A stretch of DNA of 64,000 nt, from assembly GCA_021775875.1 (NCBI GenBank), contig JAJFHA010000002.1, positions 62,001 through 126,000 on the forward strand, given 5' to 3'. This stretch comes from Hyphomicrobiales bacterium. GTDB taxonomy: Bacteria > Pseudomonadota > Alphaproteobacteria > Rhizobiales > NORP267. Below the pieces are notes generated by a model, which worked only from the letters and a program-made list of their open reading frames with translations, was not told the DNA's origin and searched no databases. A program made the translations under genes and the position numbers. This document shows positions 12,203 to 35,418 of this stretch, piece by piece. Each line of letters starts with the position of its first letter. The stretch's first letter is position 1.

Positions 12203-12220
12203 AACACGAAGGAGAGGGAA

Positions 12221-15442: not shown

Positions 15443-15445
15443 ACC

Positions 15446-17632: not shown

Positions 17633-18955
17633 ATGTCGATGAATAAACGTCTTCTATCTTTAGGCAAGGGTATTGCCGTAATCGGGGCTGCGGCCACGAT
17701 GGCGATATCCGCTGTACCTGCTTATGCGCAGGAAACCATTTCGGCGGGGATCGTATCATTCCTGACCGGACCGGCTGCGGGACCGTTTGGTGTGCCTGGC
17801 CGTCAGGGCGCCGAACTTGTAATTGAAGCCATCAACGCGGGCACAATGCCAGCACCTTACAACAGTGCAGGGTTTGGTGGCGCACAGATGGAGCCGACCT
17901 ACTCTGACGAGTCTGGTGGTAATGCCAAGCAGGTTGCGGAATACCGGAATCTTGTTGAGAAACAGAATATGGATGTCATGATCGGATTTATTTCTTCCGG
18001 TTCATGCATGGCCATTGCACCGGTTGCTGAAGAATTGCAGCGCCTCACAATCATGTCCACGTGCGGCACGCCCCGTCTTTTTGAAGAAGGCGATTGGCAA
18101 TATACATACCGTACACAAGCCAATGCTGTTGGCGATTCAATAGCAGCAGCCTTGTATGTTCGTGAACATTTTGGTGATGAGAACGGCTTTACCGGGATCA
18201 ACCAGAATTATGCCTGGGGACAGGATTCCTACAAATTATTCGGTCTCGCGATGGAGCATTATAACCCAAGCATCGCGGCTTCGGACAATCCTCAGTTCCC
18301 GAAGATTTTTGCGGGCCAGTACGGCACCGAAATTTCTACGCTGGCGCTTGATGACGCTCATCTGGTTCATACCAGCTTCTGGGACGGCGACATCGAAGCC
18401 TTTGTAATCCAGGCGCTGGTGCGTGGCTTCTTTGATGACAAGCTGGTTGTCTCTGTGGTTGGTGCGTCCGCCGTGGACAGCCTCGGGAACCAGTTCCCGG
18501 ATGGAGTTGTGATGGGAACCCGCGGTGAAGTTGGTCTTCTTGTTCGCAACGCTGAGCCTGGTTCTTTGAATGAATGGTTCATCAACGCCTATAAAGAACG
18601 CTATGGCGCTTATCCGATGGGCCCGTCTTATCAGTATGCCCGTGCGGTTCTGTCGCTCAAAGTTGCGATGGACAAGGCTGCTGAAACTTCAGACGGTGTT
18701 CCGTCTCAAGACGAAATCATGGCAGCCATGAATGGCGCGACCTTCCAGTCGTTCGGTGGCGAGATAAGTCTTGCTCTGGGTGATGGCCATCAGGCGATCC
18801 ATCCTGTTGGATATGGCATCACGAAATGGGATAGCGAAGCTGGTGAACCTACGGTCACCGACGTTACATTCTATCCAAACGAGTGCCTTTATCCGCCAGC
18901 AGGTCAAACGTCCGCTGATTGGATGGCAGCCGGTATGCCTGGCTCAACCTGCTAA
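17633..18955 (+). CDS. ABC transporter periplasmic substrate-binding protein (Liv/urea-amide type)
   Basis: 440 residues with a Sec signal peptide (MNKRLLSLGKG, then a hydrophobic run, cleavage after AVPAYA at residue 32). The mature part starts ETISAGIVSFLTGPAAGPFG, which is the type I periplasmic binding fold used for branched amino acids and for aromatic acids. At 440 residues it is longer than classic LivK (about 370) and closer to amide or aromatic-acid binders. The transporter genes livHMGF follow on the same strand after a strong hairpin. The ligand is not evident; the catabolic genes downstream suggest an aromatic or heteroaromatic carboxylate (inferred). Confidence 0.9.
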   Translation: MSMNKRLLSLGKGIAVIGAAATMAISAVPAYAQETISAGIVSFLTGPAAGPFGVPGRQGAELVIEAINAGTMPAPYNSAGFGGAQMEPTYSDESGGNAKQVAEYRNLVEKQNMDVMIGFISSGSCMAIAPVAEELQRLTIMSTCGTPRLFEEGDWQYTYRTQANAVGDSIAAALYVREHFGDENGFTGINQNYAWGQDSYKLFGLAMEHYNPSIAASDNPQFPKIFAGQYGTEISTLALDDAHLVHTSFWDGDIEAFVIQALVRGFFDDKLVVSVVGASAVDSLGNQFPDGVVMGTRGEVGLLVRNAEPGSLNEWFINAYKERYGAYPMGPSYQYARAVLSLKVAMDKAAETSDGVPSQDEIMAAMNGATFQSFGGEISLALGDGHQAIHPVGYGITKWDSEAGEPTVTDVTFYPNECLYPPAGQTSADWMAAGMPGSTC

Positions 18956-18971
18956 TACCTGATCAAATATA

Positions 18972-19001
18972 CGGGGCGGTGAACTTCGTTTCGCCGCCCC
19001 G
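18972..19001 (+). terminator. GC-rich stem-loop between binding-protein gene and livH
   Basis: CGGGGCGGTGAA and TTCGCCGCCCCG form a 12-pair stem (one GU pair) with a six-base loop, beginning 17 bases after the stop. Only a short T run follows (TTTT at 19004). It probably protects the binding-protein mRNA from decay or partly terminates, raising binding-protein output over the membrane genes. Confidence 0.7.
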
Positions 19002-19028
19002 AATTTTCCCGCTAGGATTGGGCTGCAG

Positions 19029-19925
19029 ATGCAACTTTTTATTACTATTCTGATCGACGGGTTAACCTACTCTTCGTACCTTTTCATCGTCTCTGTCGGC
19101 CTTACTGTTATCTTCGGTGTGATGAAGATTTTGAATATTGCCCATGGCAGTTTTTTTGCCTGGGGCGCGTATGGCGCGGCTTATTCAATTGGTCTGGCGG
19201 CGAATGCCGGATTTCCAGCCTGGTTCGGGTTCATCCTGATCCTTTTGTCCGCCATTCTGGTTGGCCTCGTATTGGGAGTGATTATCGAGCGAGTCATTCT
19301 CCGCAAAATGTATGACCAGGAAGAGGTTGTTCTTGTCCTCGCGACCTTTGGCATCTTTTTAATATTGGAAGATCTTATTCTGCTGGTCTTCGGCGTTAAT
19401 CCCTTTTTCGCCTATCAACCGATGGCCTATCTGGGAAACATAAAACTTGGCGGTATTAGTCGCGATGTCTATTCGCTGACCCTGCTGGCGGCGGCGGCGG
19501 TAATCGCGATCGGCTGTTGGTACAGTCTGAACAAAACCAAGTGGGGTAATATCCTCGCTACTGTCATTTTTGACCGTGAGATCAGCTTGGCGATCGGGAT
19601 CAATGTTCAAGCGGTTTATACGGCGACCTTCGTGCTGGGCACGGCCCTTGGAGCTTTGGGGGGTGCGTATATTGCGCCCACGGTATCGGTGGCACCCGGG
19701 TTTGGTATCGACATTATCATTTTGAGTTTCGCCGTTGTGGTAATCGGTGGCCTGGGGTCAATCCCCGGCGCGGTGATCGGAGCCTTGATGGTCGGTATAT
19801 TGCGCGCCATCGCTGTTCATCAGATGCCGGAACTTGAATTGTTCGTTGTCTACGCCGTTATGGCGCTCGTTCTAATAGTACGGCCGGAAGGGCTGTTTGC
19901 CCCGGCCGTGGCCAGGAAAATCTGA
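19029..19925 (+). CDS. livH: Branched-chain-type ABC transporter permease LivH
   Basis: 298 residues with about eight hydrophobic segments. The family features are FIVSVGLTVIFGVMKILNIAHGSF near the N-terminus and the C-terminal IILSFAVVVIGGLGSIPGAVIGA, both near-invariant in LivH. It forms the inner-membrane channel with LivM. The last base of its stop is the first base of the livM start (TGATG, shared at 19925), so the two genes are translationally coupled. Confidence 0.92.
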   Translation: MQLFITILIDGLTYSSYLFIVSVGLTVIFGVMKILNIAHGSFFAWGAYGAAYSIGLAANAGFPAWFGFILILLSAILVGLVLGVIIERVILRKMYDQEEVVLVLATFGIFLILEDLILLVFGVNPFFAYQPMAYLGNIKLGGISRDVYSLTLLAAAAVIAIGCWYSLNKTKWGNILATVIFDREISLAIGINVQAVYTATFVLGTALGALGGAYIAPTVSVAPGFGIDIIILSFAVVVIGGLGSIPGAVIGALMVGILRAIAVHQMPELELFVVYAVMALVLIVRPEGLFAPAVARKI

Positions 19926-20884
19926 TGCGTTCAATATTATTTCAAGACAAGACGATTTTTTGGATGGGGCTTTGTTTTCTGTCCCTCGCAATCGCAGCTT
20001 TGTTTTTGCCCAACTGGATTGTGAACAACGTGATGTTCGGTCTTGCCCGCGGGCTGGCGGTGCTCGGGTTGATGCTGTTGTGGCGGACGGGTTTGGTCTC
20101 GTTCGGACATGCGCTTTATTTCGGCATTGGAGCTTACGGCGTTGCGCTTCTGGAGAAATATACCGGAACGACGGATATTTTCCTGAGGTTGATTTGCGCC
20201 GTTATAGTTTCGGCAATTGTCGGCTATCTACTCGGATTTATCCTGCGTGGTTACCGGGCGATTTTTTTCGCGATGTTGTCGCTGGCTTTTTCAATGGTCA
20301 TGTACGGCATTCTCGTGAAGATGGAAGTGTTGGGATCTACAGACGGATTTTCGGTCTCCAGGACCACCTTTTTTGGATGGGTTCCTGAATCCAAATATGC
20401 ATTATTGCTATCGCTGATTATTGTCTGCATGGCGTCTGCGGCATTTGTGCAGGTCTATCTGAAATCGAGCCTGGGCCAGTTATCTACGGCAATCAAAGAT
20501 AACGAAATACGCGTTGAATATCTGGGCTATTCGGTTGCAAGGGCGGTCCATGTAAAATACGTGATTTCCGCCATCATGGCTGGACTGGGAGGTGGGTTGA
20601 TTGCAATGGCTTTGGGTCAGGTTGATCCGGATTCCATGGTCAACTGGACCGTTTCGGGTGAGCTGGTTTTTATTACAATCATGTCAGGTGCCGGTAGCGT
20701 TGTAGCGCCATTCATTGGCGGGGTCGTTTTTGCTTTTCTGAGTACATACGCCTCGGAATTTATGCCTCATGCCTGGCAATTGGTGATTGGCGCCACATTG
20801 CTTGGAATTATATTCTTCCTGCCGGGAGGTATTTGGTCGCTGATTGAAAAACTCTGGAAAAGGGGGGAGCGTCACCATGGATAA
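19925..20884 (+). CDS. livM: Branched-chain-type ABC transporter permease LivM
   Basis: 319 residues, normal length. Visible are ARGLAVLGLMLLWRTGLVSFGHALYFGIGAYG at the N-terminus, then the cytoplasmic loop STAIKDNEIRVEYLGYSV that contacts the ATPases (its EAA-like part), and GELVFITIMSGAGSVVAPFIGG near the end. It pairs with LivH. The ATPase gene livG begins eight bases inside its 3' end. The pseudogene at 1087-1318 corresponds to the EAA-like loop region of this protein. Confidence 0.92.
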   Translation: MRSILFQDKTIFWMGLCFLSLAIAALFLPNWIVNNVMFGLARGLAVLGLMLLWRTGLVSFGHALYFGIGAYGVALLEKYTGTTDIFLRLICAVIVSAIVGYLLGFILRGYRAIFFAMLSLAFSMVMYGILVKMEVLGSTDGFSVSRTTFFGWVPESKYALLLSLIIVCMASAAFVQVYLKSSLGQLSTAIKDNEIRVEYLGYSVARAVHVKYVISAIMAGLGGGLIAMALGQVDPDSMVNWTVSGELVFITIMSGAGSVVAPFIGGVVFAFLSTYASEFMPHAWQLVIGATLLGIIFFLPGGIWSLIEKLWKRGERHHG

Positions 20885-21713
20885 TTCCCCGATTTTGCGT
20901 GTCACTGATTTGCATAAATCCTTTTCTGGTATTGTAGCCGCCAGCAATTTGAATGTTGATGTGGCAGAGGGTGAAATTGTCGGTGTGATTGGCGCCAATG
21001 GCGCCGGTAAAACCGTGTTTATCAATATGATCACCGGGTATCTCAAACCCAGCAGCGGAAAAATCGAGTTTGCTGGCAAGGACATAACCGGGATCGAGCC
21101 GCGCAACGCCACCCATATGGGTGTCTGCAGATCATTCCAGGTCAGTCAGGTCTTTATGACAATGTCCGTTCTGGAGAATATGCTTATCGCTTTGTCGGTC
21201 TCCAAGGACAGGGGCTTTTCCATTCTACAAGCCTATGACAGGCCTGAACTGATTGCTGAATGCGAACAGATTATGGCGCGTTATAATTTGTCTGAGTTTC
21301 GTGATCTTGAGGTGAGCACTCTGTCGCAGGGGGTGCGCAAGCTTCTCGATATTGCGATGGCGATTGTATCCGAACCCAAGGTTCTGCTTCTTGACGAGCC
21401 GACTTCGGGGGTATCGTCGGAAGACAAATTCCCGATCATGGATGTGGTCATTGGTGATTTGAAAAAAAGCGGTACTTCGGTTCTTTTTGTGGAACACGAT
21501 ATGGAAATCGTGGAACGCTATGTGGACCGGGTATTGGCATTCTATCAGGGTGAAATCATTTGCGATGCCCCGCCAGCCGAAGCGCTCAAAGATCCTAAAG
21601 TGATCGAATATGTGGTTGGTTCGGATCATGATCCGAAAAAACCAGCCAGGAAATCCACCAAAAAAACTGCCAGGAAACCGGCAAAAAAATCTTCAGGGGT
21701 CCGCCGTGCTTGA
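20877..21713 (+). CDS. livG: ABC transporter ATP-binding protein LivG with Lys-rich tail
   Basis: 278 residues from ATG 20877 (GGGGGGAG upstream); a longer frame from 20844 is rejected. Walker A is GANGAGKT; the signature helix is STLSQGVRKLLDIAMA (an SQG variant of SGGQ); Walker B is VLLLDEPTSGVS, and the H-loop is FVEHDME. Usual LivG proteins end shortly after the VIEYVVG-type helix. This one continues for about 30 residues of Lys, Ala, Pro and Arg (PKKPARKSTKKTARKPAKK and so on) coded by imperfect 24-base tandem repeats. The tail is not required by the family and may bind nucleic acid or anionic lipid, or may be harmless. Its end overlaps livF by eight bases. Confidence 0.9.
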   Translation: MDNSPILRVTDLHKSFSGIVAASNLNVDVAEGEIVGVIGANGAGKTVFINMITGYLKPSSGKIEFAGKDITGIEPRNATHMGVCRSFQVSQVFMTMSVLENMLIALSVSKDRGFSILQAYDRPELIAECEQIMARYNLSEFRDLEVSTLSQGVRKLLDIAMAIVSEPKVLLLDEPTSGVSSEDKFPIMDVVIGDLKKSGTSVLFVEHDMEIVERYVDRVLAFYQGEIICDAPPAEALKDPKVIEYVVGSDHDPKKPARKSTKKTARKPAKKSSGVRRA

Positions 21714-22350
21714 AATCAAGGATCTGAACGTTAATCTTGGCCCAGCGGAAATTCTGCGGAATGCCTCGATGGATATTGTCGGCGGGCAGACCGTTGGTTT
21801 GATTGGTCGCAATGGCGCCGGGAAAACCACTACGTTGCGTGCCTTGATGGGTTTGCTGAAAATCAAATCCGGCACAATTATGTTTGATCATATGGAACTA
21901 ACCAAGATACCAGCCCAAAAGCGGGCCCATCTGGGGATCGGTTATATGCCGGAGGATCGCCGTCTGGTTCCTCACTTGTCATCGGAAGAAAATATCAAAA
22001 CCCCGATTTGGTCGCTGCATATCCCTGATTGGGAAGACCGGTTGGAATGGATTTACAAGATCATCCCCGAGATGGAAGTGTTTCGGGACAGGGCATCTGC
22101 CAGCCTTTCCGGCGGCCAACAAAAGTTGGTGGCGCTCGGGCGTGCGCTGATGATTGGCAACAAAATGCTGGTTTTGGACGAACCGACCGAGGGCGTGGCA
22201 CCAGCATTGGCAAAACGGATTTCTGAAATTCTGCTGGATCTTAAATCTGACGGGGTTTCAATTATGATTTCTGAGTCCAATTTGCAGCATTGCGGCGATA
22301 TTCTCGACCGGGTTTTTTCAATCGAACGTGGTGTTATCAGCGAAGATTAG
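21706..22350 (+). CDS. livF: ABC transporter ATP-binding protein LivF
   Basis: 214 residues from GTG 21706, preceded by AGGGG. Starting at the earlier frame opening (21610) would add lysine-rich sequence that belongs to livG in another frame, so it is rejected. Walker A is GRNGAGKTTTLRALMG; the signature is ASLSGGQQKLVALGRALM, and Walker B is MLVLDEPTEGVAP. The EDRR in GYMPEDRRLVPHLS is typical of LivF. It is slightly shorter than the usual 233-237 residues. It completes the importer: binding protein, LivH, LivM, LivG, LivF. Confidence 0.92.
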   Translation: MLEIKDLNVNLGPAEILRNASMDIVGGQTVGLIGRNGAGKTTTLRALMGLLKIKSGTIMFDHMELTKIPAQKRAHLGIGYMPEDRRLVPHLSSEENIKTPIWSLHIPDWEDRLEWIYKIIPEMEVFRDRASASLSGGQQKLVALGRALMIGNKMLVLDEPTEGVAPALAKRISEILLDLKSDGVSIMISESNLQHCGDILDRVFSIERGVISED

Positions 22351-22604: not shown

Positions 22605-23480
22605 TTGAAGCCTCCGATTTTCGACTATGTTAAAGTTTCTACTGTCGAAGAGGCGACGGCGATTCTTGCGGATTCGAGCAAGGAGGCTGTTGTGATCGCG
22701 GGCGGGCAAAGCCTGTTGCCGATGCTAAATTTTCGCCTCGCGGCGCCCGAAATCCTCGTTGATATTTCAGGAATTGAGGCGTTAAAATCACTGATTGAAC
22801 GGGACAACGTGGTTACCATCGGTGCCATGACCCGCCATGTTGATCTTGGCTCATCGCCGATTATCGCCAGGCATTTCCCGGTTATCACTAAAGCCGTAAC
22901 CCATATCGCCCATCTGGCGATCCGTAACCGGGGAACGATAGGCGGCAGCCTGTGCCACGCGGACCCGGCGGCTGAACTTCCCATGATGGCGCTGTTGCTC
23001 AATGCGGAGTTAATGGTTGCTGGCGGTAAAGGTCCGCGAACAATTGCGGCGAAGGATTTCTTTCAGAGTGCCCTGGAAACCGATATCCAGGAAGGGGAAT
23101 TGCTGGTGTCGGTCAGCTTGCCGCTATTGCCGCCAAATACCGGCTGGGGTTTTGAAGAAGTTTCGAGAAAATCCGGCGATTTTGCGTTGGCTGCGGTCAG
23201 TGCAATTCTTGTGGTCAATGACGGGGAGATTTCAGAGGCACGCATTGCAGTTGCCGGCGTAGATGAAACGCCAAGGCGGATGAACGGGGCTGAAGCAATG
23301 TTACGCGGCAAAATGCTGGACGATGATCATCTGACAGCGGTTTGTGAAACCATCCAAAGCGAGATCAACCCCGAAACCGATTTGCAGGCGTCATCCAATT
23401 ATCGGAGACACTTGATTGGGGTGTTGACCGCGCGGGTCTTGAAAGACGCGTTTGCGGGTGCAGGGGGGATATTTGAGTGA
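22605..23480 (+). CDS. Xanthine dehydrogenase/CO dehydrogenase family FAD-binding subunit (CoxM-like)
   Basis: 291 residues from TTG 22605 with AAAGGGA upstream. The FAD site is seen in VVIAGGQSLLPMLNFRLA and in RNRGTIGGSLCHADPAAELPM, both hallmarks of the medium subunit of molybdenum hydroxylases. The C-terminal CO dehydrogenase flavoprotein domain follows (YRRHLIGVLTARVLKDAF). The [2Fe-2S] subunit gene overlaps its stop (GTGA). It passes electrons from the FeS subunit to an acceptor. The operon also contains a metallo-beta-lactamase-fold gene and the Mo subunit. Confidence 0.9.
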   Translation: MKPPIFDYVKVSTVEEATAILADSSKEAVVIAGGQSLLPMLNFRLAAPEILVDISGIEALKSLIERDNVVTIGAMTRHVDLGSSPIIARHFPVITKAVTHIAHLAIRNRGTIGGSLCHADPAAELPMMALLLNAELMVAGGKGPRTIAAKDFFQSALETDIQEGELLVSVSLPLLPPNTGWGFEEVSRKSGDFALAAVSAILVVNDGEISEARIAVAGVDETPRRMNGAEAMLRGKMLDDDHLTAVCETIQSEINPETDLQASSNYRRHLIGVLTARVLKDAFAGAGGIFE

Positions 23481-23962
23481 CCCGGAAAGTACCAATCAAT
23501 GTCCGCGTGAATGGCACAAAATACGAGCGCATGGTGGAACCGCGCAGGCTATTATCCGATTTTCTCCGCGAAGACCTTGGCCTGACCGGAACCCATATGG
23601 GGTGTGAACACGGGGTGTGCGGAGCTTGCACGATCCTGCTCGACGGCGACAGTATCCGGTCTTGCCTGTGCCTGGCGATCCAGGCTGACAATGCCGAACT
23701 TACAACCGTAGAAGGGCTCGGCGATATCGAAGCCCTCAACCCGTTGCAGCAAAAATTCCGCGAGCATCATGCCCTGCAATGCGGTTTCTGCACGTCCGGT
23801 ATGTTGATGACGGTCACAGACATGCTCTCAAAGAATACGTCATTGACCGACGAGGAAATCCGCGAGGGCCTGTCGGGCAATCTCTGCCGTTGCACCGGGT
23901 ACCAGCATATTGTCGATGCAGTTCGGGACGCTGCAAAACAAGCTGGAGACGTGTCGTCATGA
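23477..23962 (+). CDS. Molybdenum hydroxylase [2Fe-2S] subunit (CoxS-like)
   Basis: 161 residues from GTG 23477. The plant-ferredoxin cluster motif is CEHGVCGACTILLDG with a fourth Cys at RSCLCLA, and the second cluster domain has HALQCGFCTSGMLM and GNLCRCTGYQHIV. Both [2Fe-2S] sites are complete. The length is typical (about 160). It is translationally coupled upstream to the FAD subunit and downstream (ATGA) to a hydrolase gene, an arrangement that separates it from its Mo subunit. Confidence 0.93.
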   Translation: MTRKVPINVRVNGTKYERMVEPRRLLSDFLREDLGLTGTHMGCEHGVCGACTILLDGDSIRSCLCLAIQADNAELTTVEGLGDIEALNPLQQKFREHHALQCGFCTSGMLMTVTDMLSKNTSLTDEEIREGLSGNLCRCTGYQHIVDAVRDAAKQAGDVSS

Positions 23963-24723
23963 AGATGAATATTTTATCCGGTGGCGAATTGCAGATGAAG
24001 AAGCACATCTATGTGCCGGATACAGAGGATCGTCTGGAGACGATTGAAATTCCGGTATCCTGCTATCTGCTGCGTCACCCTCAGGGAAATGTTCTGTTCG
24101 ATACCGGGTGCCACCCGTCGATTGCAACCGACCCGGCGGCGCGGTGGGGTGGGCTTGAAAGGGCCATGGTGCCAAAACACAGCCCCGGCCAGGACGTTAT
24201 TTCTGAACTTGGAAAGGTCGGGTTGCAGCCTGAAGATATCGACCTGGTCATAAATTCCCATCTTCATACTGACCATTGCGGGTGCAACGAATTTTTTATC
24301 AACGCGTCTTTCTTTGCTCATCAGAAAGAGCTTGAAACCGCCAGAGCCTCTGAAATTGACGGCAATGGCTATTTTCGGGCTGATTGGGATCATGCAACTT
24401 CATTTGAAGCGATTACAGCGCAAAAAGATGTTTTCAATGATGGCCGTATCATATTGATCCCGCTGCCCGGCCATACCGCCGGCATGATGTGCGCCCTTGT
24501 TAACTTAGATAGGGATGGCGCGTTTTTTCTGGCGTCCGATGCGGTCAGTCTGAAGATAAATCTGGACGAGGAAATGGTGCCAAAGAATACCTGGCAAGGT
24601 GATTTGCTGCTCAAATCCTATGACGAAATCCGAAAAATTGAGAGGGCCGGCGCTCAGATTATTTGCGGTCATGATGCTGAACAATTGGCGCATCTCAAAA
24701 GAGGGCTGGATGGATATGCGTAA
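23959..24723 (+). CDS. Metallo-beta-lactamase-fold hydrolase, N-acyl-homoserine lactonase-like
   Basis: 254 residues from ATG 23959, which overlaps the FeS-subunit stop; an earlier in-frame opening at 23779 is inside that gene and is rejected. The metal motif is SHLHTDHCG (HxHxDH), followed by the third His in LPGHTAG, Asp in FLASDAVSL and the last His in ICGHDAEQ: all five ligand positions for a two-zinc centre are there. VLFDTGCHPS and the length match the AiiA/AttM lactonase group. It is sandwiched between molybdenum hydroxylase subunits, so its target is more likely a lactone formed from the hydroxylated ring product than a quorum signal (inferred). Confidence 0.85.
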   Translation: MKMNILSGGELQMKKHIYVPDTEDRLETIEIPVSCYLLRHPQGNVLFDTGCHPSIATDPAARWGGLERAMVPKHSPGQDVISELGKVGLQPEDIDLVINSHLHTDHCGCNEFFINASFFAHQKELETARASEIDGNGYFRADWDHATSFEAITAQKDVFNDGRIILIPLPGHTAGMMCALVNLDRDGAFFLASDAVSLKINLDEEMVPKNTWQGDLLLKSYDEIRKIERAGAQIICGHDAEQLAHLKRGLDGYA

Positions 24724-24782
24724 AATCCAGCTGAATATCCGATGCTACATCGGTGCAACCGAAATTTTTGGGGGATTTCCGG

Positions 24783-27158
24783 ATGGACATTAATACCCGT
24801 CCGAAAATTATCGGTGCCCGGGTCCAGCGGCGAGAAGACCCGCGTCTGCTCACCGGAAATGGCGCTTTTGTCGATGACCGTCAGGTTCCGGGAATGCTGC
24901 ATCTGGCTTTCAGGCGCAGCGATTTCGGGCATGCCAAAATCCTCAAGATAGACACCGAAGAAGCTGCCAGTATGCCCGGGATTATTGGGATTTATACGGC
25001 CGAAACGCTCAATGAGATCACCAAACCGGTAATCGCTTTTTCAAATATGAAGGATTATCAGGCAACGCCGATCCGCGCGCTAGCACAAGATGTTGTGCGT
25101 TATGTGGGCGAACCGGTTGTGGTGGTGGTTGCTGAAAATCGCTATCTGGCGGAAGACGCGCTGAACGAAATTTTTATTGATTATGAGCCTCTGGAAAATG
25201 TGGTTGATCCGGAATATGCAGCGTCCGGTGATGCGGTATTGGTCCATGAAGACTTGAAATCCAATATTCTGGTGGCGCGCGAATTTGAGCGCGGCGAGGT
25301 GGATGAAGCCATGTCGTCGGCGGCCATTCGGGTGAAGGGGCGGTTTCGCTCACGAAGAAAGACGGCTGTTGCCATGGAGACCCGGTCTTATCTGGCGGAA
25401 TTTGAAAAAAGCAGCCAGTCGTTGACGCTGCATTCTTCTACCCAGATACCCGGCATAATTCGCGATGCTCTGGTGGATATTCTCGATATTCCGGGGCATC
25501 GTCTGCGGGTGGTTGCGCCGGATGTTGGCGGCGGGTTTGGCGGCAAGGCTTCGCTTTACCCTGAAGAGATCGTCGTCACTGCCTTGTCCAAATTATTGAA
25601 GCGTTCGGTCAAATGGACCAGCGACCGAATGGAAGATCTGATGTCGACCAGCCAGGCGTTTGATGAAATTATCGATGCTGAATTGGGGCTGGATAGCGAG
25701 GGCAATTTGCTCGCGTTATCCGCCGACGTGTTGGGCGATGTGGGGGCCTATTCGATCTACCCCTGGACCGCGGCGCTGGAACCAATTCAGGTTGTGAGTT
25801 TCATGCCCGGTCCCTACCGGCTTGCCAATTATCGGGGCAAAGTGCGGGGCGTTGCAACCAATAAACCGCCAACCGGTCCGTATCGCGGTGTCGGGCGGCC
25901 CGCTTCTACATTTGTTATGGAGCGGTTGATGGATATGGCTGCGGGTAAATTGGGAATGGACCCCGCAGAACTGCGCCTGAAAAATTTCGTTGTTGGGGAT
26001 GAATTTCCCTACCGGATCGGGTCTGGCATCGTCTGGGATAAGTCAGAATTTTCCGAATGTCTCAATAAAGCAACCGAGAAGCTTGATTATGAAACGCTTA
26101 GGGAGAAGCAACGCATTGCCAGATCGCAAGGCCGTTTGATGGGTATCGGCATCGCCTCATATGCTGAATTGACGGGGATCGGGTCGCGCATTTCAGCGGC
26201 CCCCGGAATGCCGATTAATACGGGAACCGAAACTGCCCGGATCAGGGTTGATTCATCCGGGTCGGTGATTGCCTATTTTGGTGTTGCGTCTCACGGCCAA
26301 AGCCTGGAGACGACTCTTGCTCAGGTGGTAGCGGAGGAAATGGGCGTCAAAGTCGAGGATGTTGAGGTTGTTCTTGGTGACAGCGCTGTGATGGCCCATA
26401 GCACCGGCACTTATGCCAGCCGTTCTGCTGTTCTGGCCGGTGGTGCAGGCACTCTGGCAGCCCGCGCTGTGCGTGAAAAAATTGTCGAAGCCGCCTCGCT
26501 TTTATTTGAAGTGCCAGCCGAAGAAATCGACGTCTATGACGGCCTGATCCATGTGTCCGGCACCAACAGGAAAATGGATCTGCGCGAACTGGCCCGCGCA
26601 GTTTATTCCGAAATGGGGCGCTTCACCAAAGAAGTGCGCGAGAATCTCGATCTGGAAGCGACCAAGCTTTACGATCCGTATTTCGGTACCACCACTTCGG
26701 CCTCCCATATTGCTGTGGTCGATATAGACCCTGAAACCTTCAAGGTGAAAATCGAACAATATGTGGTCTCGGAAGATTGTGGCCGGATGATCAACCCTTT
26801 GGTGGTTGATGGGCAGGTCCATGGCGGCGTGGCACAGGGCATCGGTGCAGCGTTGTACGAAGAGGTTATCCACGACGAAAATGGACAGGTGGTGACCGCC
26901 AGTCTGGTTGACTATCTAGTGCCGTCAAGTTGCGAAGTACCGACAATTGATGTGCTCCACGCAGATACGCGATCGCCGTCAACGATTGGCGGGTTTCGTG
27001 GCATGGGTGAAGGCGGAACGATCGGCGCACCGGCAGCGATCGCCAATGCTGTGGCCGACGCGCTGGCCCCGTTTGGCATTGAGATCAATGAAATACCGAT
27101 TTCACCCGAGCGGCTTTATCGTTTGATTGAAAAAGCAAGAAATTCGGAAAAGGATTGA
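24783..27158 (+). CDS. Molybdenum hydroxylase large (molybdopterin-binding) subunit
   Basis: 791 residues from ATG 24783 (GGGGGAT upstream). The first domain (GARVQRREDPRLLTGNGAFV, VRYVGEPVVVVVAENRYLAEDA) and the Mo-cofactor domains (DVGGGFGGK, GPYRGVGRPASTFVMERLMD, GVASHGQSLETTLAQV) are those of the xanthine dehydrogenase/CoxL family. The catalytic base Glu is in GFRGMGEGGTIGAP. PYRGVGR replaces the AYxCSFR loop of true CO dehydrogenase, so CO is not the substrate. It forms the third subunit with the genes at 22605 and 23477. The substrate is unknown, perhaps an aromatic or heteroaromatic acyl-CoA, given the CoA ligase downstream. Confidence 0.9.
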   Translation: MDINTRPKIIGARVQRREDPRLLTGNGAFVDDRQVPGMLHLAFRRSDFGHAKILKIDTEEAASMPGIIGIYTAETLNEITKPVIAFSNMKDYQATPIRALAQDVVRYVGEPVVVVVAENRYLAEDALNEIFIDYEPLENVVDPEYAASGDAVLVHEDLKSNILVAREFERGEVDEAMSSAAIRVKGRFRSRRKTAVAMETRSYLAEFEKSSQSLTLHSSTQIPGIIRDALVDILDIPGHRLRVVAPDVGGGFGGKASLYPEEIVVTALSKLLKRSVKWTSDRMEDLMSTSQAFDEIIDAELGLDSEGNLLALSADVLGDVGAYSIYPWTAALEPIQVVSFMPGPYRLANYRGKVRGVATNKPPTGPYRGVGRPASTFVMERLMDMAAGKLGMDPAELRLKNFVVGDEFPYRIGSGIVWDKSEFSECLNKATEKLDYETLREKQRIARSQGRLMGIGIASYAELTGIGSRISAAPGMPINTGTETARIRVDSSGSVIAYFGVASHGQSLETTLAQVVAEEMGVKVEDVEVVLGDSAVMAHSTGTYASRSAVLAGGAGTLAARAVREKIVEAASLLFEVPAEEIDVYDGLIHVSGTNRKMDLRELARAVYSEMGRFTKEVRENLDLEATKLYDPYFGTTTSASHIAVVDIDPETFKVKIEQYVVSEDCGRMINPLVVDGQVHGGVAQGIGAALYEEVIHDENGQVVTASLVDYLVPSSCEVPTIDVLHADTRSPSTIGGFRGMGEGGTIGAPAAIANAVADALAPFGIEINEIPISPERLYRLIEKARNSEKD

Positions 27159-27162
27159 ACCT

Positions 27163-27921
27163 ATGGATTTAGGTCTTGAAGGGAAAGTAGCTGTTGTGAC
27201 GGGTGCCGCCCGCGATGTGGGGCGGGATATTGCATTGGCGCTTGCGGCTGAAGGCGCAAAAATCGCGGTCAATTATCGTGGCTCTGAACAAGCTGCCAAT
27301 GAAGTTGTAGAGACAATAAAATCTAATGGTGGTGAGGCGATTGCCTATCAGGGGGACGTTGCGGATTACCAGTCGGTCCAGTCGATGACCGATAAAATCA
27401 TTAGCGATTTTGGACAAATTGATGTGCTGGTAAATAATGCAGGCCTCGTAACGCCCAAGCTGTTTCTCGAAACCAGCCCGGACGAATGGCACCAGCAGAT
27501 TGGCGTCGGGCTATACGGTGTAATCCATTGTTGTCACGCAATGGCGCCGCACATGGTGGCAAATAATGGCGGCCGGATCATATCGCTTGCCGGAGATTCC
27601 GCGCGAATTGGCGAATCCCGGCTTTCGATCACAGCAGCGTCGCGTGGCGGCGTTTTGACCCTGACCAAATCTCTGGCGCGGGAATTCGGCAGATCGAACA
27701 TTACAGTCAACGCGATTGCTTTGGGGTTGATTGAAACCGCCCATAGCGACAAGGCGTGGCTTGATAAATACCGGGACCGTATCGTCAAACAATATCCGTT
27801 GGGCCGGATCGGCGAGCCTGAAGATATTGGCCCAATGATTACGTTTTTAGCCTCAGAAAAGGCAAGCTGGATTACCGGTCAAGTGATGAGCATCAATGGC
27901 GGCTTCTGCATGCCTGGCTAA
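27163..27921 (+). CDS. SDR-family protein lacking the usual Tyr-Lys catalytic pair
   Basis: 252 residues from ATG 27163 (AAAGGAT upstream). The NAD(P) site VVTGAARDVGRDIA and the NNAG motif in VLVNNAG are normal, as is the C-terminal QVMSINGGFCMPG. Where classical SDRs have S...YxxxK, the sequence reads SITAASRGG: aligned with the usual YSASKGG, the Tyr is Thr and the Lys is Arg. The bases 27628-27645 code for these residues clearly, so it is not a frameshift. Either it uses other residues, or it binds cofactor or product without classical reduction. It lies four bases after the Mo subunit stop. Confidence 0.85.
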   Translation: MDLGLEGKVAVVTGAARDVGRDIALALAAEGAKIAVNYRGSEQAANEVVETIKSNGGEAIAYQGDVADYQSVQSMTDKIISDFGQIDVLVNNAGLVTPKLFLETSPDEWHQQIGVGLYGVIHCCHAMAPHMVANNGGRIISLAGDSARIGESRLSITAASRGGVLTLTKSLAREFGRSNITVNAIALGLIETAHSDKAWLDKYRDRIVKQYPLGRIGEPEDIGPMITFLASEKASWITGQVMSINGGFCMPG

Positions 27922-27958
27922 CGCCGCTTTATGATGGCATCCGTTTTGGGGAAATCTG

Positions 27959-29503
27959 ATGATTAGAACCGATCTTATCGCTTCCATTCCTGAATTACTA
28001 AACCGGCACGCTGCTGCGCGCGGTGAAAAAATTGCATTTGAAGACGCGACGGAGAAAATTACTTATGGGGAGCTTCTGAAATCCACCGCAAATCTGGCGG
28101 GTCATTTTGCCGATCTCGACTTGAAGGTTGGCGAAAGTGTTGCGTTGTTTCTGCCGAATTCCGTCCGGTGGGTGGAAACCTGTTTCGCTATTCTAAGAGC
28201 AGGTGGGGTTTGCGTCCCGATCAGTTATGACTCTACCAAAGCTGAAGTGCTGTACCGGCTTCAGGATGCGCAATGCAAAATTATTGTTTCCACGGCTGAG
28301 AAATCAGATCTGATCGCTGAAGCCAGAAATTCTTCGCCGTCCTTGAAATATATAATTCTGACGGGCGAAATCAGCGATCTGGGAAATGTGATTTCTTACG
28401 ACCGGCTTGGGGAAAATCTCTCGAAAACCCAACCGCGTGATCCGGAAGATATCGATTGTGTTTCCTATATTGTCTACACGTCCGGGACCACCGGACAGGC
28501 TAAGGGTGTGCTCTTAAATACGCGCGGGATGCTCTGGATCACGGCAGCATGCTGGGGGCCAATTACTAACATGTCCGAAGACGATGTGGTGTTGTCGCCT
28601 CTGCCGTTATTCCATTCATACGCACTCAACCTGTCGGTTCTGGCTATCCTCGCGCTTGGTGCCAGCGAATATATCATGGAGAAATTTTCCACAGACGAAG
28701 TGCTGGCTTTGGCGCGGGAAGGGCGGTTTACGGTCATTCCCGGTGTACCTACAATGTTTCATTATCTGCTGGAGCAATCCGGCGACAATTCCGGTCCCGG
28801 ACTAGCGGGCGTTCGCATGTGCGTCTCGGCGGGTGCCATTATGCCAGCGGCATTGAACGAACAGTTTGAAGCCCGGTTTGGAATTCCGCTTCTCGATGGG
28901 TACGGCATTACCGAAACCTCGACCATGGTGACGATGAACTGGCCGTCGGGTGGGCGTATCATGGGTTCTTGCGGCCTGCCTTTGCCGGGGTTGGCGGTGC
29001 GGTTGCTGGACCCGGATACCGGACAGGATGTAGAGACCGGTAAAGAGGGCGAATTGATCGTATCCGGTCCGAATGTGATGCTTGGCTATCATCAAAAAGA
29101 AGCTGAAACGGCGGCGGCGCTTAAAAACGGCTGGTATTATACCGGCGACCTGGCGGTATCCGACAAGCATGGCTTTTTGACTATCACCGGCAGATTGAAG
29201 GAACTCATCATCAGGGGCGGGCAAAATATTGCGCCAGCCGAAGTCGAAGACATCGTGAAGGAATGCGAGAGCGTTCTGGATTGCGCAATTGTCGGCATGC
29301 CCCACGAACATCTGGGCGAAGTGCCGGCTGCATTTGTTGTTGTGCGCGACGGTTTTGAAATTGGGCGCGAAGCGATCCTTGACCATTGCAAATCGCGCTT
29401 GTCAAAATACAAAATTCCAGCGGATATTTATGAAATTCAGGAAATTCCCCGGACCGGTTCGGGCAAGATCAAACGGTTTTTGCTGAAGGATATGATCGAC
29501 TGA
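27959..29503 (+). CDS. AMP-forming acyl-CoA ligase of the molybdenum hydroxylase locus
   Basis: 514 residues. The ATP loop is YTSGTTGQAKGVLLNTRG, the adenine motif GYGITETSTMVTMN, the hinge YTGDLAVSDKHGFLTITGRLK and the catalytic Lys in PRTGSGKIKR. It is a class I adenylate-forming enzyme of normal length. It is the last of the run that starts with the FAD subunit at 22605, and 63 bases separate it from the next molybdenum hydroxylase locus. It would load the substrate acid onto CoA before hydroxylation, as in the furoate and 4-hydroxybenzoate schemes (inferred). Confidence 0.88.
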   Translation: MIRTDLIASIPELLNRHAAARGEKIAFEDATEKITYGELLKSTANLAGHFADLDLKVGESVALFLPNSVRWVETCFAILRAGGVCVPISYDSTKAEVLYRLQDAQCKIIVSTAEKSDLIAEARNSSPSLKYIILTGEISDLGNVISYDRLGENLSKTQPRDPEDIDCVSYIVYTSGTTGQAKGVLLNTRGMLWITAACWGPITNMSEDDVVLSPLPLFHSYALNLSVLAILALGASEYIMEKFSTDEVLALAREGRFTVIPGVPTMFHYLLEQSGDNSGPGLAGVRMCVSAGAIMPAALNEQFEARFGIPLLDGYGITETSTMVTMNWPSGGRIMGSCGLPLPGLAVRLLDPDTGQDVETGKEGELIVSGPNVMLGYHQKEAETAAALKNGWYYTGDLAVSDKHGFLTITGRLKELIIRGGQNIAPAEVEDIVKECESVLDCAIVGMPHEHLGEVPAAFVVVRDGFEIGREAILDHCKSRLSKYKIPADIYEIQEIPRTGSGKIKRFLLKDMID

Positions 29504-29566: not shown

Positions 29567-32545
29567 GTGAAAAAGATTGCTGATAAAGTGTATGTTTCTC
29601 AGGCATTGGAACGTGTTGAAGACTCGGCTCTGCTTGCAGGTGCTGGCGTCTTTGCCGACGATATCGCGGTCGGTGCGCGGACCGGCCATGCGGCTTTTCT
29701 ACGCTCGCCTCACGCCCATGCGGACATAAATTCGATTGATATCAAGACGGCGGAAGCTTTGGACGGTGTCCACGCTATCGTTGTCGGTGAAGACCTTCGC
29801 GCCTGGTCGCGGCCTTTTATTGTGGGCGTCAAACAGCCGATGGAACATTGGTGTCTGGCGCAAGACCGGGTTCGTTATATCGGCGAACCGGTGGCGATTG
29901 TGGTCGCTGAAGATCGCTACATAGCGGAAGATGCGCTGGCGCTGATTGAAGTTGATTACACGCCCCTGAAGGCGGTGGTTGATCCGGAAATCGCGATCCT
30001 GAAAGACGCGCCGGTGCTGCACGAAGCGGTTGGCAGCAATCTCATCAGCGAGCGGAATTTTTCTTATGGCGACCCGGAAAAGGCGTTTAGGGATGCTGAC
30101 CGCATTGTCAGTATGAAAGTTCGCTATCCGCGCAATGCTTGCACCCCGATTGAGTGTTTTGTGGTCAATGCGGATTACGATGCTGCCGAGGATAATTATG
30201 ATGTATTGGCCAATTTCCAGGGGCCATTCAGCCTGCTCCCGGTGATGGCGTTGGCGCTCAATATCCCTGTCAACAAATTGCGGTTGCGGACACCGCCGGA
30301 TTCAGGCGGCAGTTTTGGCGTCAAACAGGCAATTTTCCCATATATCGTTGCGCTTTGTCTGGCATCGCGCAAGGCGGGGCGCCCGGTTAAATGGGTCGAA
30401 GACCGGCTGGAGCATCTGATGGCGGCGACTTCGGCCACAAACCGTGTCACCGAAATAGAAGGCGCGGTCACTAAAGACGGAGAATTGATCGGCCTGTGCT
30501 ACCGGCAACTGGAAGATTGCGGCGGGTATTTGCGCGCGCCGGAACCGGCCACCTTGTACCGGATGCACGGCAACATGACCGGGGCCTACAAGGTTCAGAA
30601 TTTGGCGATTGAAAACCGTGTCGTGCTGACCAACAAAACCCCCACCGGATTGAACCGCGGGTTTGGTGGGCCGCAGGTGTATTTCGCCCTTGAGCGGCTA
30701 ATGCACAAAATCGCGGTGGAGCTGAAGCTTGATCCTCTTGAAGTGATCAAGCGCAATCTGGTGGAGGCCAAGGATATGCCTTACCGGACGCCATCGGGGG
30801 CCTTGTATGATTCCGGTGACTATCGCAAAGCCGTTTTGGAAGCTTGCAAAAAAGGTAACCTTGAAGCGTTAAAGAAACGCCGCGATCAGGTGCGGGGCGC
30901 GGGTGGTCTTTACGGGATCGGCTATACAGCCATTGTCGAGCCCAGCATTTCCAACATGGGCTATATCAGTACGGCGCTGACCGCTTTGGAGCGTGAAAAA
31001 GCCGGGCCGAAAGATGGCGGTGCGGCGATGGCCACGGTTTCGGTGGATGCGTTGGGGTCGGTGTCGGTGACCATGGATTCGACCCCTCAAGGCCAGGGGC
31101 ATCGTACTGTTGCGGCTCAGGTGGTGGCAGATGTTTTGGGCCTGAAGCCTGCTGATATTCGGGTCGATGTCACTATGGATACGGCCAAGGATAATTGGTC
31201 GATCTCAGCGGGAAATTATTCGAGCCGCTTTGCCGGGTCGGTAGCCGGGTCGGTGCATCTGGCAGCGATTGAAATCCGTGACAAGCTTAAGCGCATGGCG
31301 CAAACGTCGCTCAATATAGCGGCTGATAAAGTGTCATTTTCAGATGGAAAATTTTCCGACGCTGACAATCCGGATAACGCCATTCAATTTCGCCGTCTTG
31401 CCGGGCAGGCGCATTGGTCGCCTGGATTGCTGCCGGAAGGCGATGTGCCCGGGTTGCGCGCCGCTAGTTCATGGACAATGCCTGAACTGGAAGCACCTGA
31501 CCCGGAAGACCGGGTCAACAGTTCCGGCGCTCACGGGTTTGTTTTCGACTATTGTGGTGTTGAAATTGACCGCGATACCGGCCGCGTGCGGCTTGATAAA
31601 TATGTGACGATGCACGATGCAGGCCGGTTGCTGAACCCGGCTCTGGTGGACGGGCAGGTCTATGGCGGCTTTACCCAGGCATTGGGGGCGGCTTTATTTG
31701 AGGAGCTTTCCTACACGGCTGATGGCACATTTCAGGCAGGGTCCATGGCTGAATATCTCATCCCCACTGTTGCTGAAACACCGGCTCCGGTCATCCTGCA
31801 TATGTCGTCGCCATCTCCGTTCACGCCGTTGGGTGCCAAGGGTGTTGGCGAAGGCAATTCCATGAGCACGCCGGTATGCCTCGCCAACGCGGTAGCCGAT
31901 GCGCTGGGGCGGGACGATATAGAATTGCCGCTCAAGCAATCCAAAGTGCGGGACTGGATTGGTATTCGCGAGACGCCTCCAACAAGCGGCGGGGCGGTCG
32001 CAACTCCTGTGGCCGATAAAGACGCCATTACCGGTCGCGGCGAATTGACGATCCGTCTCCCCGTTGAGCGTGTTTGGGATTTGTTGCTTGATCCGGAAAA
32101 TCTTGAAAAAGCGATCCCCGGTTGTCGGGAGTTGATTGTTGAAGGCGATCATTCGTATCGGGCCGACGTTTCGGTGGCGGTTGGACCGGTGCGCGGAGAT
32201 ATTGTCGCGCTGGTGAAGCTGTCCGATCTAGACCCATCCAAATTCCTGCGGCTTGGTGGTTCAGCCGATGGTCCGCTTGGGTCATCTACGGGGTCGGGCA
32301 CAATCCTGCTGACCGCAACTGGTGCAAATGGTGACGCCACAATTCTGCATTATGATTATAGCGTCTCTCTCTCGGGCAAGATCGCGGCGGTTGGCGGGCG
32401 GTTGCTTGGCGGGGCTATGAAAGTGCTTATCAAGCGTTTCTTCGAACGGTTTATCCGCATCGCAGCGCCTGAAACTGCACCCGCCGGATTTCCCCTGTTT
32501 GGATGGCTTGAAAATCTCTTGCGTGCGATCGGGATCAAGCGATGA
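29567..32545 (+). CDS. hmfA: Molybdenum hydroxylase large subunit fused to a CoxG-type domain; probable 2-furoyl-CoA dehydrogenase large subunit
   Basis: 992 residues from GTG 29567. Residues 1-800 are an XDH-family Mo subunit: RVEDSALLAGAGVFADDI, VRYIGEPVAIVVAEDRYIAEDAL, DSGGSFGVKQAIFPYIVALC, LNRGFGGPQVYFALERLM and GAKGVGEGNSMSTP with the catalytic Glu. Residues about 823-992 are a CoxG/SRPBCC domain (LTIRLPVERVWDLLLDPENL, AIPGCREL, ADGPLGSSTGSGT), normally a separate membrane-associated protein of CO dehydrogenase clusters. The following genes (FAD, FeS, CoA ligase, enoyl-CoA hydratase) reproduce the hmfABCDE order, so hydroxylation of 2-furoyl-CoA at C5 is the best guess. Biochemical identity is not proven by sequence alone. 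Confidence 0.7.
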   Translation: MKKIADKVYVSQALERVEDSALLAGAGVFADDIAVGARTGHAAFLRSPHAHADINSIDIKTAEALDGVHAIVVGEDLRAWSRPFIVGVKQPMEHWCLAQDRVRYIGEPVAIVVAEDRYIAEDALALIEVDYTPLKAVVDPEIAILKDAPVLHEAVGSNLISERNFSYGDPEKAFRDADRIVSMKVRYPRNACTPIECFVVNADYDAAEDNYDVLANFQGPFSLLPVMALALNIPVNKLRLRTPPDSGGSFGVKQAIFPYIVALCLASRKAGRPVKWVEDRLEHLMAATSATNRVTEIEGAVTKDGELIGLCYRQLEDCGGYLRAPEPATLYRMHGNMTGAYKVQNLAIENRVVLTNKTPTGLNRGFGGPQVYFALERLMHKIAVELKLDPLEVIKRNLVEAKDMPYRTPSGALYDSGDYRKAVLEACKKGNLEALKKRRDQVRGAGGLYGIGYTAIVEPSISNMGYISTALTALEREKAGPKDGGAAMATVSVDALGSVSVTMDSTPQGQGHRTVAAQVVADVLGLKPADIRVDVTMDTAKDNWSISAGNYSSRFAGSVAGSVHLAAIEIRDKLKRMAQTSLNIAADKVSFSDGKFSDADNPDNAIQFRRLAGQAHWSPGLLPEGDVPGLRAASSWTMPELEAPDPEDRVNSSGAHGFVFDYCGVEIDRDTGRVRLDKYVTMHDAGRLLNPALVDGQVYGGFTQALGAALFEELSYTADGTFQAGSMAEYLIPTVAETPAPVILHMSSPSPFTPLGAKGVGEGNSMSTPVCLANAVADALGRDDIELPLKQSKVRDWIGIRETPPTSGGAVATPVADKDAITGRGELTIRLPVERVWDLLLDPENLEKAIPGCRELIVEGDHSYRADVSVAVGPVRGDIVALVKLSDLDPSKFLRLGGSADGPLGSSTGSGTILLTATGANGDATILHYDYSVSLSGKIAAVGGRLLGGAMKVLIKRFFERFIRIAAPETAPAGFPLFGWLENLLRAIGIKR

Positions 32546-33360
32546 AACCTGCTCCTTTCACCTATTGCCGACCCGACAATGTGGAGCAGGTTCTGGACCT
32601 GCTGCGCCAACATGGCGGTGACTCCCGGATTTTAGCGGGAGGGCAGACCCTTATGGCGATGCTGAATATGCGCCTGGTGGAGCCGAAAATTCTGGTTGAT
32701 ATTTCCATGATGGAAGCGCTTCGCTTCATCCGGGTGGCTGACAATTATCTGGAAATTGGCGCGGCAGTTATTCAGGCGGACTTGCTGGCCTGGACTGACC
32801 TTGAACAATATGCACCGCTGATGGCGAAAGCTTTGCCATGGGTCGGGCACGCTCAAACCCGCAACAAGGGTACGGTATGCGGGTCCATCGCCCATTCTGA
32901 CCCAAGTTCTGAGATGCCACTTTGTCTGGCTCTGCTCGGCGGTGAAATTGTGTTGCGTTCAAAAACCAATCGGAGAATGGTCAAGGCTGCGGATTTTCAA
33001 ATTGGCACCTTGACGACAGCACGGCAGGAAGACGAATTGATCGAGGCAATTCGCATTCCGGTGCCTGCTGATGTTTCCAAATTTGCATTTCAGGAAGTTG
33101 CCATTCGCCACGGAGATTTCGCGCTTGTTGCGGTGGCTGCTTCTCATAGTCCTGATGGTATCCGGCTTGGCGTTGGTGGTGTTGCAGACCGTCCTGAGGT
33201 ACGGCATTGGGAGCATTTGCCAGAGGATGAAATTGATACGGCCCTCAATGATCTGGCTCATGAATTGGGCGGCTATGACGATATTCATGCCAGCGCTGGG
33301 TATCGGCGCGAACTTGTCCGAACAATTGGCAAAAGGGTAATTCTGGAGGTGATGGCGTGA
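32542..33360 (+). CDS. hmfB: Molybdenum hydroxylase FAD-binding subunit; probable 2-furoyl-CoA dehydrogenase FAD subunit
   Basis: 272 residues, ATG overlapping the previous stop. RILAGGQTLMAMLNMRLVEPKILVDI and TRNKGTVCGSIAHSDPSSEMPL are the two FAD-binding stretches of the medium subunit. SAGYRRELVRTIGKRVI ends the CO dehydrogenase flavoprotein C-terminal domain. It is distinct from the paralogue at 22605. The FeS subunit starts inside its stop (GTGA), giving tight coupling. Confidence 0.75.
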   Translation: MKPAPFTYCRPDNVEQVLDLLRQHGGDSRILAGGQTLMAMLNMRLVEPKILVDISMMEALRFIRVADNYLEIGAAVIQADLLAWTDLEQYAPLMAKALPWVGHAQTRNKGTVCGSIAHSDPSSEMPLCLALLGGEIVLRSKTNRRMVKAADFQIGTLTTARQEDELIEAIRIPVPADVSKFAFQEVAIRHGDFALVAVAASHSPDGIRLGVGGVADRPEVRHWEHLPEDEIDTALNDLAHELGGYDDIHASAGYRRELVRTIGKRVILEVMA

Positions 33361-35389: not shown

Positions 35390-35418
35390 AAAAAATTCAG
35401 AGAACAGGGAACCAGAGA

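Follow-up and report, generated by a model that had tools for sequence, protein, structure and literature searches.

The operon at positions 22605–29503 of the window (the whole 64,000-nucleotide stretch of Hyphomicrobiales DNA analysed here) raises the question of why a gene for a metallo-β-lactamase-fold (MBL) hydrolase of the lactonase family lies between the iron-sulfur (FeS) and molybdenum (Mo) subunit genes of a Mo hydroxylase, and which substrate such a gene set would process. The gene order, given correctly with its coordinates in the initial annotation, is flavin adenine dinucleotide (FAD) subunit, FeS subunit, MBL hydrolase, Mo subunit, a protein of short-chain dehydrogenase/reductase (SDR) fold and an acyl-coenzyme A (CoA) ligase (Table 1). 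The coupling of MBL to the FeS gene claimed there is also borne out, as the MBL ATG overlaps the FeS stop codon (tcATGA), placing the true MBL start at 23959 and not at 23779, where the mechanically called open reading frame (ORF) begins; the FAD and FeS genes likewise share a 4-base overlap. As detailed below, the gene set is a real and widely conserved catabolic module among CoA/Mo-hydroxylase ring-acid pathways, undescribed as far as we found, by which many proteobacteria probably break down a furan-type ring acid. Our more specific proposal, which we advance tentatively, is that the operon degrades an O-heteroaromatic (furan-type) carboxylic acid, with the MBL enzyme opening a lactone that arises from Mo hydroxylation.

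A scan of GTDB, using one genome per species, recovered 273 stretches encoding an MBL relative, of which the best 80 were examined; as the scan patterns (HxDHCGCN, MKM start) derive from six MBL sequences with Mo linkage, the sample may be biased towards the Mo-linked family. The FeS gene was adjacent to MBL in 47 of these loci, the Mo gene in 47, and both in 46. A stretch resembling the Mo subunit of this hydroxylase (Mo1) occurred anywhere in the locus in 60/80 cases, and a Mo or FeS gene under stricter identity limits also in 60/80, although the two sets differ (L064 versus L084). With three plasmid regions added (83 loci), FeS and MBL genes were found together in 57 loci and adjacent in 50, the 4-base overlap being kept in 39 of the 50 adjacent pairs. 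Because our ORF caller (Python) fuses or overlooks genes where GC content is high, gene content was tallied by tblastn under identity thresholds, at which diverged copies may escape notice. Many loci lie on truncated contigs, many genomes are metagenome-assembled (MAGs), and the loci are not independent. Among 150 related genomes, five close MBL relatives outside the window's own genome (48–86% identity) each lay beside FeS and Mo genes, some of them on truncated contigs. The neighbourhood analysis, with 60/80 loci linked to Mo/FeS genes, thus left intact the earlier claim that MBL belongs with the Mo hydroxylase, and we rejected MBL as a chance neighbour in view of the conserved adjacency and FeS overlap across loci.

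The other genes of the module recur to varying degrees. Across the 60 GTDB loci with Mo/FeS genes, we counted SDR in 55, CoA ligase in 42, crotonase in 41, an HxlR-type regulator in 41, any Liv or substrate-binding-protein part in 36, thioesterase in 29, CoxG in 26, iron-containing alcohol dehydrogenase (Fe-ADH) in 21, succinate-semialdehyde dehydrogenase (SSADH) in 19 and AbfD in 6. CoA ligase is accordingly not universal (42/60), and none was seen in the G040 locus. Liv genes adjoin the module in L037–L039. The complete module, as annotated, is found on plasmid pSR7 of Aminobacter SR38 in the order HxlR-type regulator, Liv, CoxG, crotonase, FAD, FeS, MBL, Mo, SDR, CoA ligase, Fe-ADH, thioesterase and SSADH, and plasmids of Bradyrhizobium elkanii and Rhizobium etli carry variants of it. 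Record titles place the hosts in the Alpha-, Beta- and Gammaproteobacteria; besides Aminobacter SR38, culturable carriers include Paucimonas lemoignei and Herbaspirillum lusitanum P6-12. MBL relatives are common also on plasmids (56 records, 42 from Rhizobium, among them NZ_CP006987), and many of the Rhizobium records listed come from bean nodules, an origin that might suggest a substrate from plants.

MBL proteins are also encoded in genomes that lack a Mo hydroxylase of this type, and absence of the Mo neighbour requires 7 changes on the MBL tree. When 12 of the 20 genomes with MBL but no nearby Mo/FeS genes were tested, 4 held a Mo1 orthologue elsewhere (60–61% identity). Distant MBL relatives (28–39%) lay by no Mo hydroxylase in the 15–19 kb read, which covered five of the twelve loci below 48%. 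In a mostly Alcaligenaceae MAG group, MBL stands by a thioesterase and a hexapeptide-repeat gene that we take to be PaaY-like, and both tested genomes of this group (L060, L068) lacked a Mo enzyme of this type; in L056, L060 and L061 MBL lies beside the hotdog thioesterase and the PaaY-like protein. Afipia copies of MBL (L045:3241-10762 and L064:3296-10762) sit in a different cluster with acyl-CoA dehydrogenase, SDR, CoA ligase, crotonase and a CoA-transferase-like ORF, the latter named by eye.

The MBL protein itself retains an intact lactonase fold and metal site. The HxHxDH...H...D...H dinuclear site of the fold is present in 57/57 sequences, with invariant ligands H101, H103, D105, H106, H172, D194 and H238, the invariance of residues 103–110 being partly built in by the search pattern; two cysteines (HCGCN) by the metal motif are also invariant, again within that pattern. 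The AlphaFold2 model (pLDDT 95.7) matches best in the PDB to the N-acyl homoserine lactone (AHL) lactonase AhlX (Z 36.5, root-mean-square deviation 1.6 Å, 252 residues aligned). The tyrosine that lies three residues past the metal Asp is catalytic in AHL lactonases and appears as DAVY in 6cgy when aligned with MBL; at this site, the 57 MBL sequences carry Ser (32), Ala (18), Pro (5), Cys (1) or Thr (1). All lactonase families of NCBIfam compared scored below their cut-offs, namely AttM as the best match (141 bits, cut-off 390), AhlS (117, 475), AiiA (105, 375) and 4-pyridoxolactonase NF047925 (103, 325), and the tree separates the MBL relatives as a single group from the distant lactonases (support 99/96).

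The FAD, 2Fe-2S and Mo subunits, the molybdenum-cofactor-binding domains and the Glu loop assign the hydroxylase to the xanthine-dehydrogenase family. The Glu of this loop is a functional residue of Mo hydroxylases; the loop reads GFRGMGEGG in the window and is present as GxRGxGExG in 55/59 Mo1 sequences, some of them truncated. Among solved structures, the large subunit of quinoline 2-oxidoreductase (1t3q) is the nearest relative of the Mo subunit (569 bits).

Two further proteins appear to have departed from their usual chemistry. In the SDR, rightly called atypical by the initial annotation, the positions of all three catalytic residues are changed: Ser is replaced by Gly in 62/62 sequences, Tyr is absent in 62/62 (V, A, G, T or K instead) and Lys is replaced by Arg in 60 and by Gly in 2, a loss also seen in the alignment to FabG 3sj7. 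A glycine motif of the form TGxxRDVG is shared by nearly all of 33 sequences, and the AlphaFold2 model (pLDDT 88.5) shows the FabG fold (TM 0.90), although residues 146–149 within the changed region fall below pLDDT 50. Judged by these residues, the protein cannot act as a classical dehydrogenase. Enoyl-CoA hydratase catalysis uses two Glu, and the operon crotonase of the relatives lacks both in 48/48 sequences, with His (46) or Gly (2) at the first and Ala (43) or Ser (5) at the second, together with an invariant Tyr; in L063, CoxG and crotonase form a single 490-residue protein.

The observed gene content, order and overlap, conservation, metal site, residue losses in SDR and crotonase, and alternative tails are the basis from which we infer each reaction and substrate of the following route. 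The acid would be taken up by the Liv importer and activated by the CoA ligase, the Mo-FeS-FAD hydroxylase would add a hydroxyl group to the ring carbon beside the ring oxygen, and the product would tautomerise to a lactone to be hydrolysed by the MBL enzyme. In most relatives, the crotonase devoid of the hydratase Glu may act next, possibly by decarboxylation, giving a four-carbon (C4) product at the level of 4-hydroxybutyryl-CoA or succinate semialdehyde, whose conversion, where a tail exists, would be completed by Fe-ADH together with thioesterase and SSADH, or else by 4-hydroxybutyryl-CoA dehydratase. We favour this lactone-opening furan route because the FAD-FeS-MBL-Mo order and the overlap are kept, the lactonase fold and metal site are intact, CoA ligase and crotonase recur, the tails are mutually exclusive and the logic of the 2-furoate route is alike. 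3-Furoate (furan-3-carboxylate), the expected product when furanoterpenoids and limonoids undergo side-chain removal, accounts for all carbons and fits best at the atom level. Here, 3-furoyl-CoA would yield 2-hydroxy-3-furoyl-CoA, whose lactone tautomer would undergo reduction of the ring double bond, perhaps by the altered SDR as candidate reductase, and the reduced lactone would open to 2-(2-hydroxyethyl)malonyl-CoA and lose CO2 to give 4-hydroxybutyryl-CoA. The carboxyl group arising from C2 would be the one lost, with the altered crotonase as candidate decarboxylase. That the operon is the first 3-furoate pathway in this full form, with MBL supplying the lactone opening and an SDR re-tooled away from alcohol/ketone chemistry, is a doubtful extension of the broader proposal.

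The C4 product was deduced from the tail genes, counted in 63 Mo/FeS loci (60 from GTDB plus the three plasmid regions). Tails occur in 32/63 loci, as Fe-ADH or SSADH in 25, as an AbfD-like gene in 7 and as both in none; such zero overlap would have a chance of 0.023 were the loci independent, which they are not, and the AbfD label changes 5 times on the MBL tree. The AbfD assignment draws on L118:22924-24480, labelled 'HpaB', which scores 797 bits against 6vjr and 574 against 1u8v and keeps CFQRC and CYHRRSYVC; Cys/His motifs are the ligands of 4-hydroxybutyryl-CoA dehydratase, and by these sequence features the protein is a relative of 4-hydroxybutyryl-CoA dehydratase/vinylacetyl-CoA isomerase. 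The notion that all HpaB-like genes near the module encode monooxygenases was dropped, as the Bradyrhizobium gene is such a dehydratase relative. For the other ending, the L042 aldehyde dehydrogenase exceeds the SSADH cut-off (TIGR01780, 733 vs 646), and L038, a locus that clusters weakly with that of the window (81/82), includes an Fe-ADH at 58% and a thioesterase at 54%. Two unrelated endings, Fe-ADH/SSADH and AbfD, would thus consume a product of the 4-hydroxybutyrate level, to which the tail sequences point. In the window genome, other contigs encode relatives of Fe-ADH (60%), SSADH (63%) and CoxG (53–54%) as well as a crotonase (47–49%) whose two Glu positions hold Gly and Ala, and AbfD yielded 23–25% matches at most. 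Searching the genomes of 20 tail-less modules (19 of the 31 tail-less Mo loci plus L114) uncovered an Fe-ADH relative elsewhere in 3 (E ≤ 1e-110) and AbfD in 1 (E ≤ 1e-120).

Several observations weigh against the furan route as drawn. Neither tail is present in 31/63 loci, and at the thresholds used neither was found anywhere in 16 of the 20 genomes searched, so that our expectation of one of the two tails in each genome was not borne out. The window operon itself has no crotonase, thioesterase or tail gene beside it, and in the sister genome G002 the best Fe-ADH and SSADH matches reach 39% and 38%. The L043 Fe-ADH scores 257 against a 4-hydroxybutyrate dehydrogenase cut-off of 500, and higher for ErcA (298 vs 550). 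No reaction is assigned to the triad-less SDR, and 8 of the 12 tested MBL-bearing genomes without nearby Mo/FeS genes lack a Mo1 orthologue. Moreover, one bacterium that carries the module, Xanthobacter tagetidis, uses thiophene-2-carboxylate for growth (PMC6624754), which might speak for a sulfur ring.

This last point is also in favour of the nearest alternative, a nitrogen- or sulfur-heteroaromatic ring (pyrrole, thiophene or pyridine acid) with MBL opening a lactam, thiolactone or CoA thioester, which we consider unlikely, if the best placed of the alternatives. It would agree with quinoline 2-oxidoreductase as closest solved relative of the Mo subunit, with the module in the fusaric-acid user Burkholderia IMCC1007 and with the hydrolysis of thiolactones by lactonases (PMC10293998 and PMC12258673, respectively). 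However, amidohydrolases, deaminases, sulfur enzymes and other proteins for handling nitrogen or sulfur were not seen among the recurrent module genes, and the C4 acids on which the tails act carry a hydroxy or aldehyde group (4-hydroxybutyrate or succinate semialdehyde), so that an oxygen ring appears likelier than thiophene or pyrrole. Of the lactonase-assisted ring-acid routes put forward in the initial annotation, the lactone-forming furan-type CoA route fits best.

A simpler rival to the lactone-opening proposal, somewhat less probable again, is that MBL acts as a repair enzyme, reopening γ-butyrolactone cyclised from 4-hydroxybutyryl-CoA as Agrobacterium BlcC/AttM would, in which case the ring acid may differ. 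AttM as the best-matching family would suit this role, and the Fe-ADH or SSADH genes in 25/63 loci recall blcABC. Yet MBL stays between the FeS and Mo genes even where Fe-ADH and SSADH are lacking, the AttM cut-off is missed and the AHL-lactonase Tyr is lost.

That the Mo enzyme is a carbon monoxide dehydrogenase (CODH) or aldehyde oxidoreductase appears very improbable. The best NCBIfam matches of the Mo subunit are indeed glyceraldehyde dehydrogenase (663 bits) and two CODH models (NF040766, 639; TIGR02416, 523), but all remain below their cut-offs (790, 950 and 991), and CoA ligase and lactonase are unexpected companions for such enzymes. Moreover, PYRGVGR, reported for the Mo subunit and confirmed here, stands where CODH has its cysteine loop and is kept as P-Y/F-RGVGR in 59/59 Mo1 sequences, some truncated; the earlier conclusion that it excludes CODH outright is better stated as making CODH unlikely. 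Least credible of all is an AHL lactonase for quorum quenching placed here by chance, as the fold matches at Z 33–36 and the plasmid annotations that name MBL as such are outweighed by the FeS overlap kept in 39/50 adjacent pairs, the missed AttM, AhlS and AiiA cut-offs and the catalytic Tyr absent in 57/57.

Upstream of the operon, the tandem-HxlR protein is likely the regulator of the module, and the Liv importer noted earlier ahead of the locus is indeed present (Table 1). Directly downstream follows a second, separate Mo-hydroxylase operon, possibly a companion pathway, with relatives beside the module in L080 and partly in L116.

Table 1. Features of the Mo-hydroxylase locus and its surroundings, in window coordinates.
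Feature	Position	Strand	Remarks
Tandem-HxlR transcriptional regulator	16176..17147	-	PF01638 in two stretches; upstream of operon
LivKHMGF ABC importer	17633..22350	+	assigned from translations; ahead of operon
Liv substrate-binding protein	17633-18955	+	
Liv permeases	19029-20884	+	
Liv ATPases	20844-22350	+	
FAD subunit, Mo hydroxylase 1	22605..23480	+	TTG start; NCBIfam glyceraldehyde dehydrogenase beta, 265 bits, under cut-off 350
2Fe-2S (FeS) subunit, Mo hydroxylase 1	23477..23962	+	NCBIfam glyceraldehyde dehydrogenase gamma, 229 bits, under cut-off 290
MBL-fold lactonase-family hydrolase, 254 aa	23959..24723	+	PF00753
Mo subunit, Mo hydroxylase 1	24753..27158	+	PF20256/PF02738/PF01315
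SDR-fold protein without S-Y-K triad	27163..27921	+	ATG start within ORF 27127
Acyl-CoA ligase (ANL family)	27959..29503	+	PF00501, 298.6 bits
Second, separate Mo-hydroxylase operon	29567..36201	+	directly after first operon
Second operon, Mo subunit fused to CoxG	29567-32545	+	
Second operon, FAD subunit	32542-33360	+	
Second operon, FeS subunit	33357-33869	+	
Second operon, CoA ligase	ORF 33779-35389	+	
Second operon, crotonase	35419-36201	+	both Glu kept

Adjoining the HxlR regulator, an amidase and a convergent DUF2848 protein are encoded at 14099-16147, and a DUF2848 relative (48%) also lies by the module in L058 (9554-10162). Further upstream, 11672-13702 holds a flavin-reductase-like ORF (named by eye) and an HpaB-type monooxygenase; the latter (12221-13702) scores 278 bits to 9lft and 106 to 6vjr and looks like a monooxygenase, and in L079, L082 and L116 HpaB relatives (54–56%) lie close to the module. 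The window's own genome (3.1 Mb) contains eleven MoCoBD_1 matches, a rich set of Mo hydroxylases.

The initial annotation could not name the locus from known pathways, and no account of this gene set or of a 3-furoate pathway was recognised in the open-licence PubMed Central literature at title and abstract level. For the module core, the plasmid records seen give only the generic labels 'xanthine dehydrogenase family' and 'N-acyl homoserine lactonase family', which could mislead surveys of quorum quenching and of CO oxidisers. Among known systems, quinoline 2-oxidoreductase offers the closest solved Mo subunit, and it is not known to have a lactonase or CoA-ligase partner. Vitamin B6 degradation in Mesorhizobium uses 4-pyridoxolactonase and the SDR pyridoxal 4-dehydrogenase, resembling the module in MBL fold (Z 32.8) and SDR neighbour; such a route was rejected, as the module reaches neither NCBIfam cut-off (103 vs 325; 179 vs 325) and its SDR lacks the catalytic residues. 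The γ-butyrolactone operon blcABC/attKLM of Agrobacterium resembles many relatives of the module in combining an MBL lactonase with SSADH and Fe-ADH, but the module's MBL lies under the AttM cut-off, and the blc operon is not known to encode a Mo hydroxylase or a CoA ligase. The closest parallel is hmfABCDE of Cupriavidus basilensis HMF14 (proteins ADE20399–ADE20403), which, according to PMC6678421, likewise combines a CoA ligase with a Mo-dependent acyl-CoA hydroxylase whose product can form a lactone, and in which no gene is assigned to the lactone hydrolysis of the 2-furoate pathway. Judged by gene content alone, the module shows the same operon type of CoA ligase plus Mo-dependent acyl-CoA dehydrogenase, and it offers a genetic handle on this unassigned furan-acid step as well as on an SDR and a crotonase stripped of their usual catalytic residues. 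In contrast to hmf, the module has an embedded lactonase and an altered SDR, to which its relatives add CoxG, an altered crotonase and the C4 tails.

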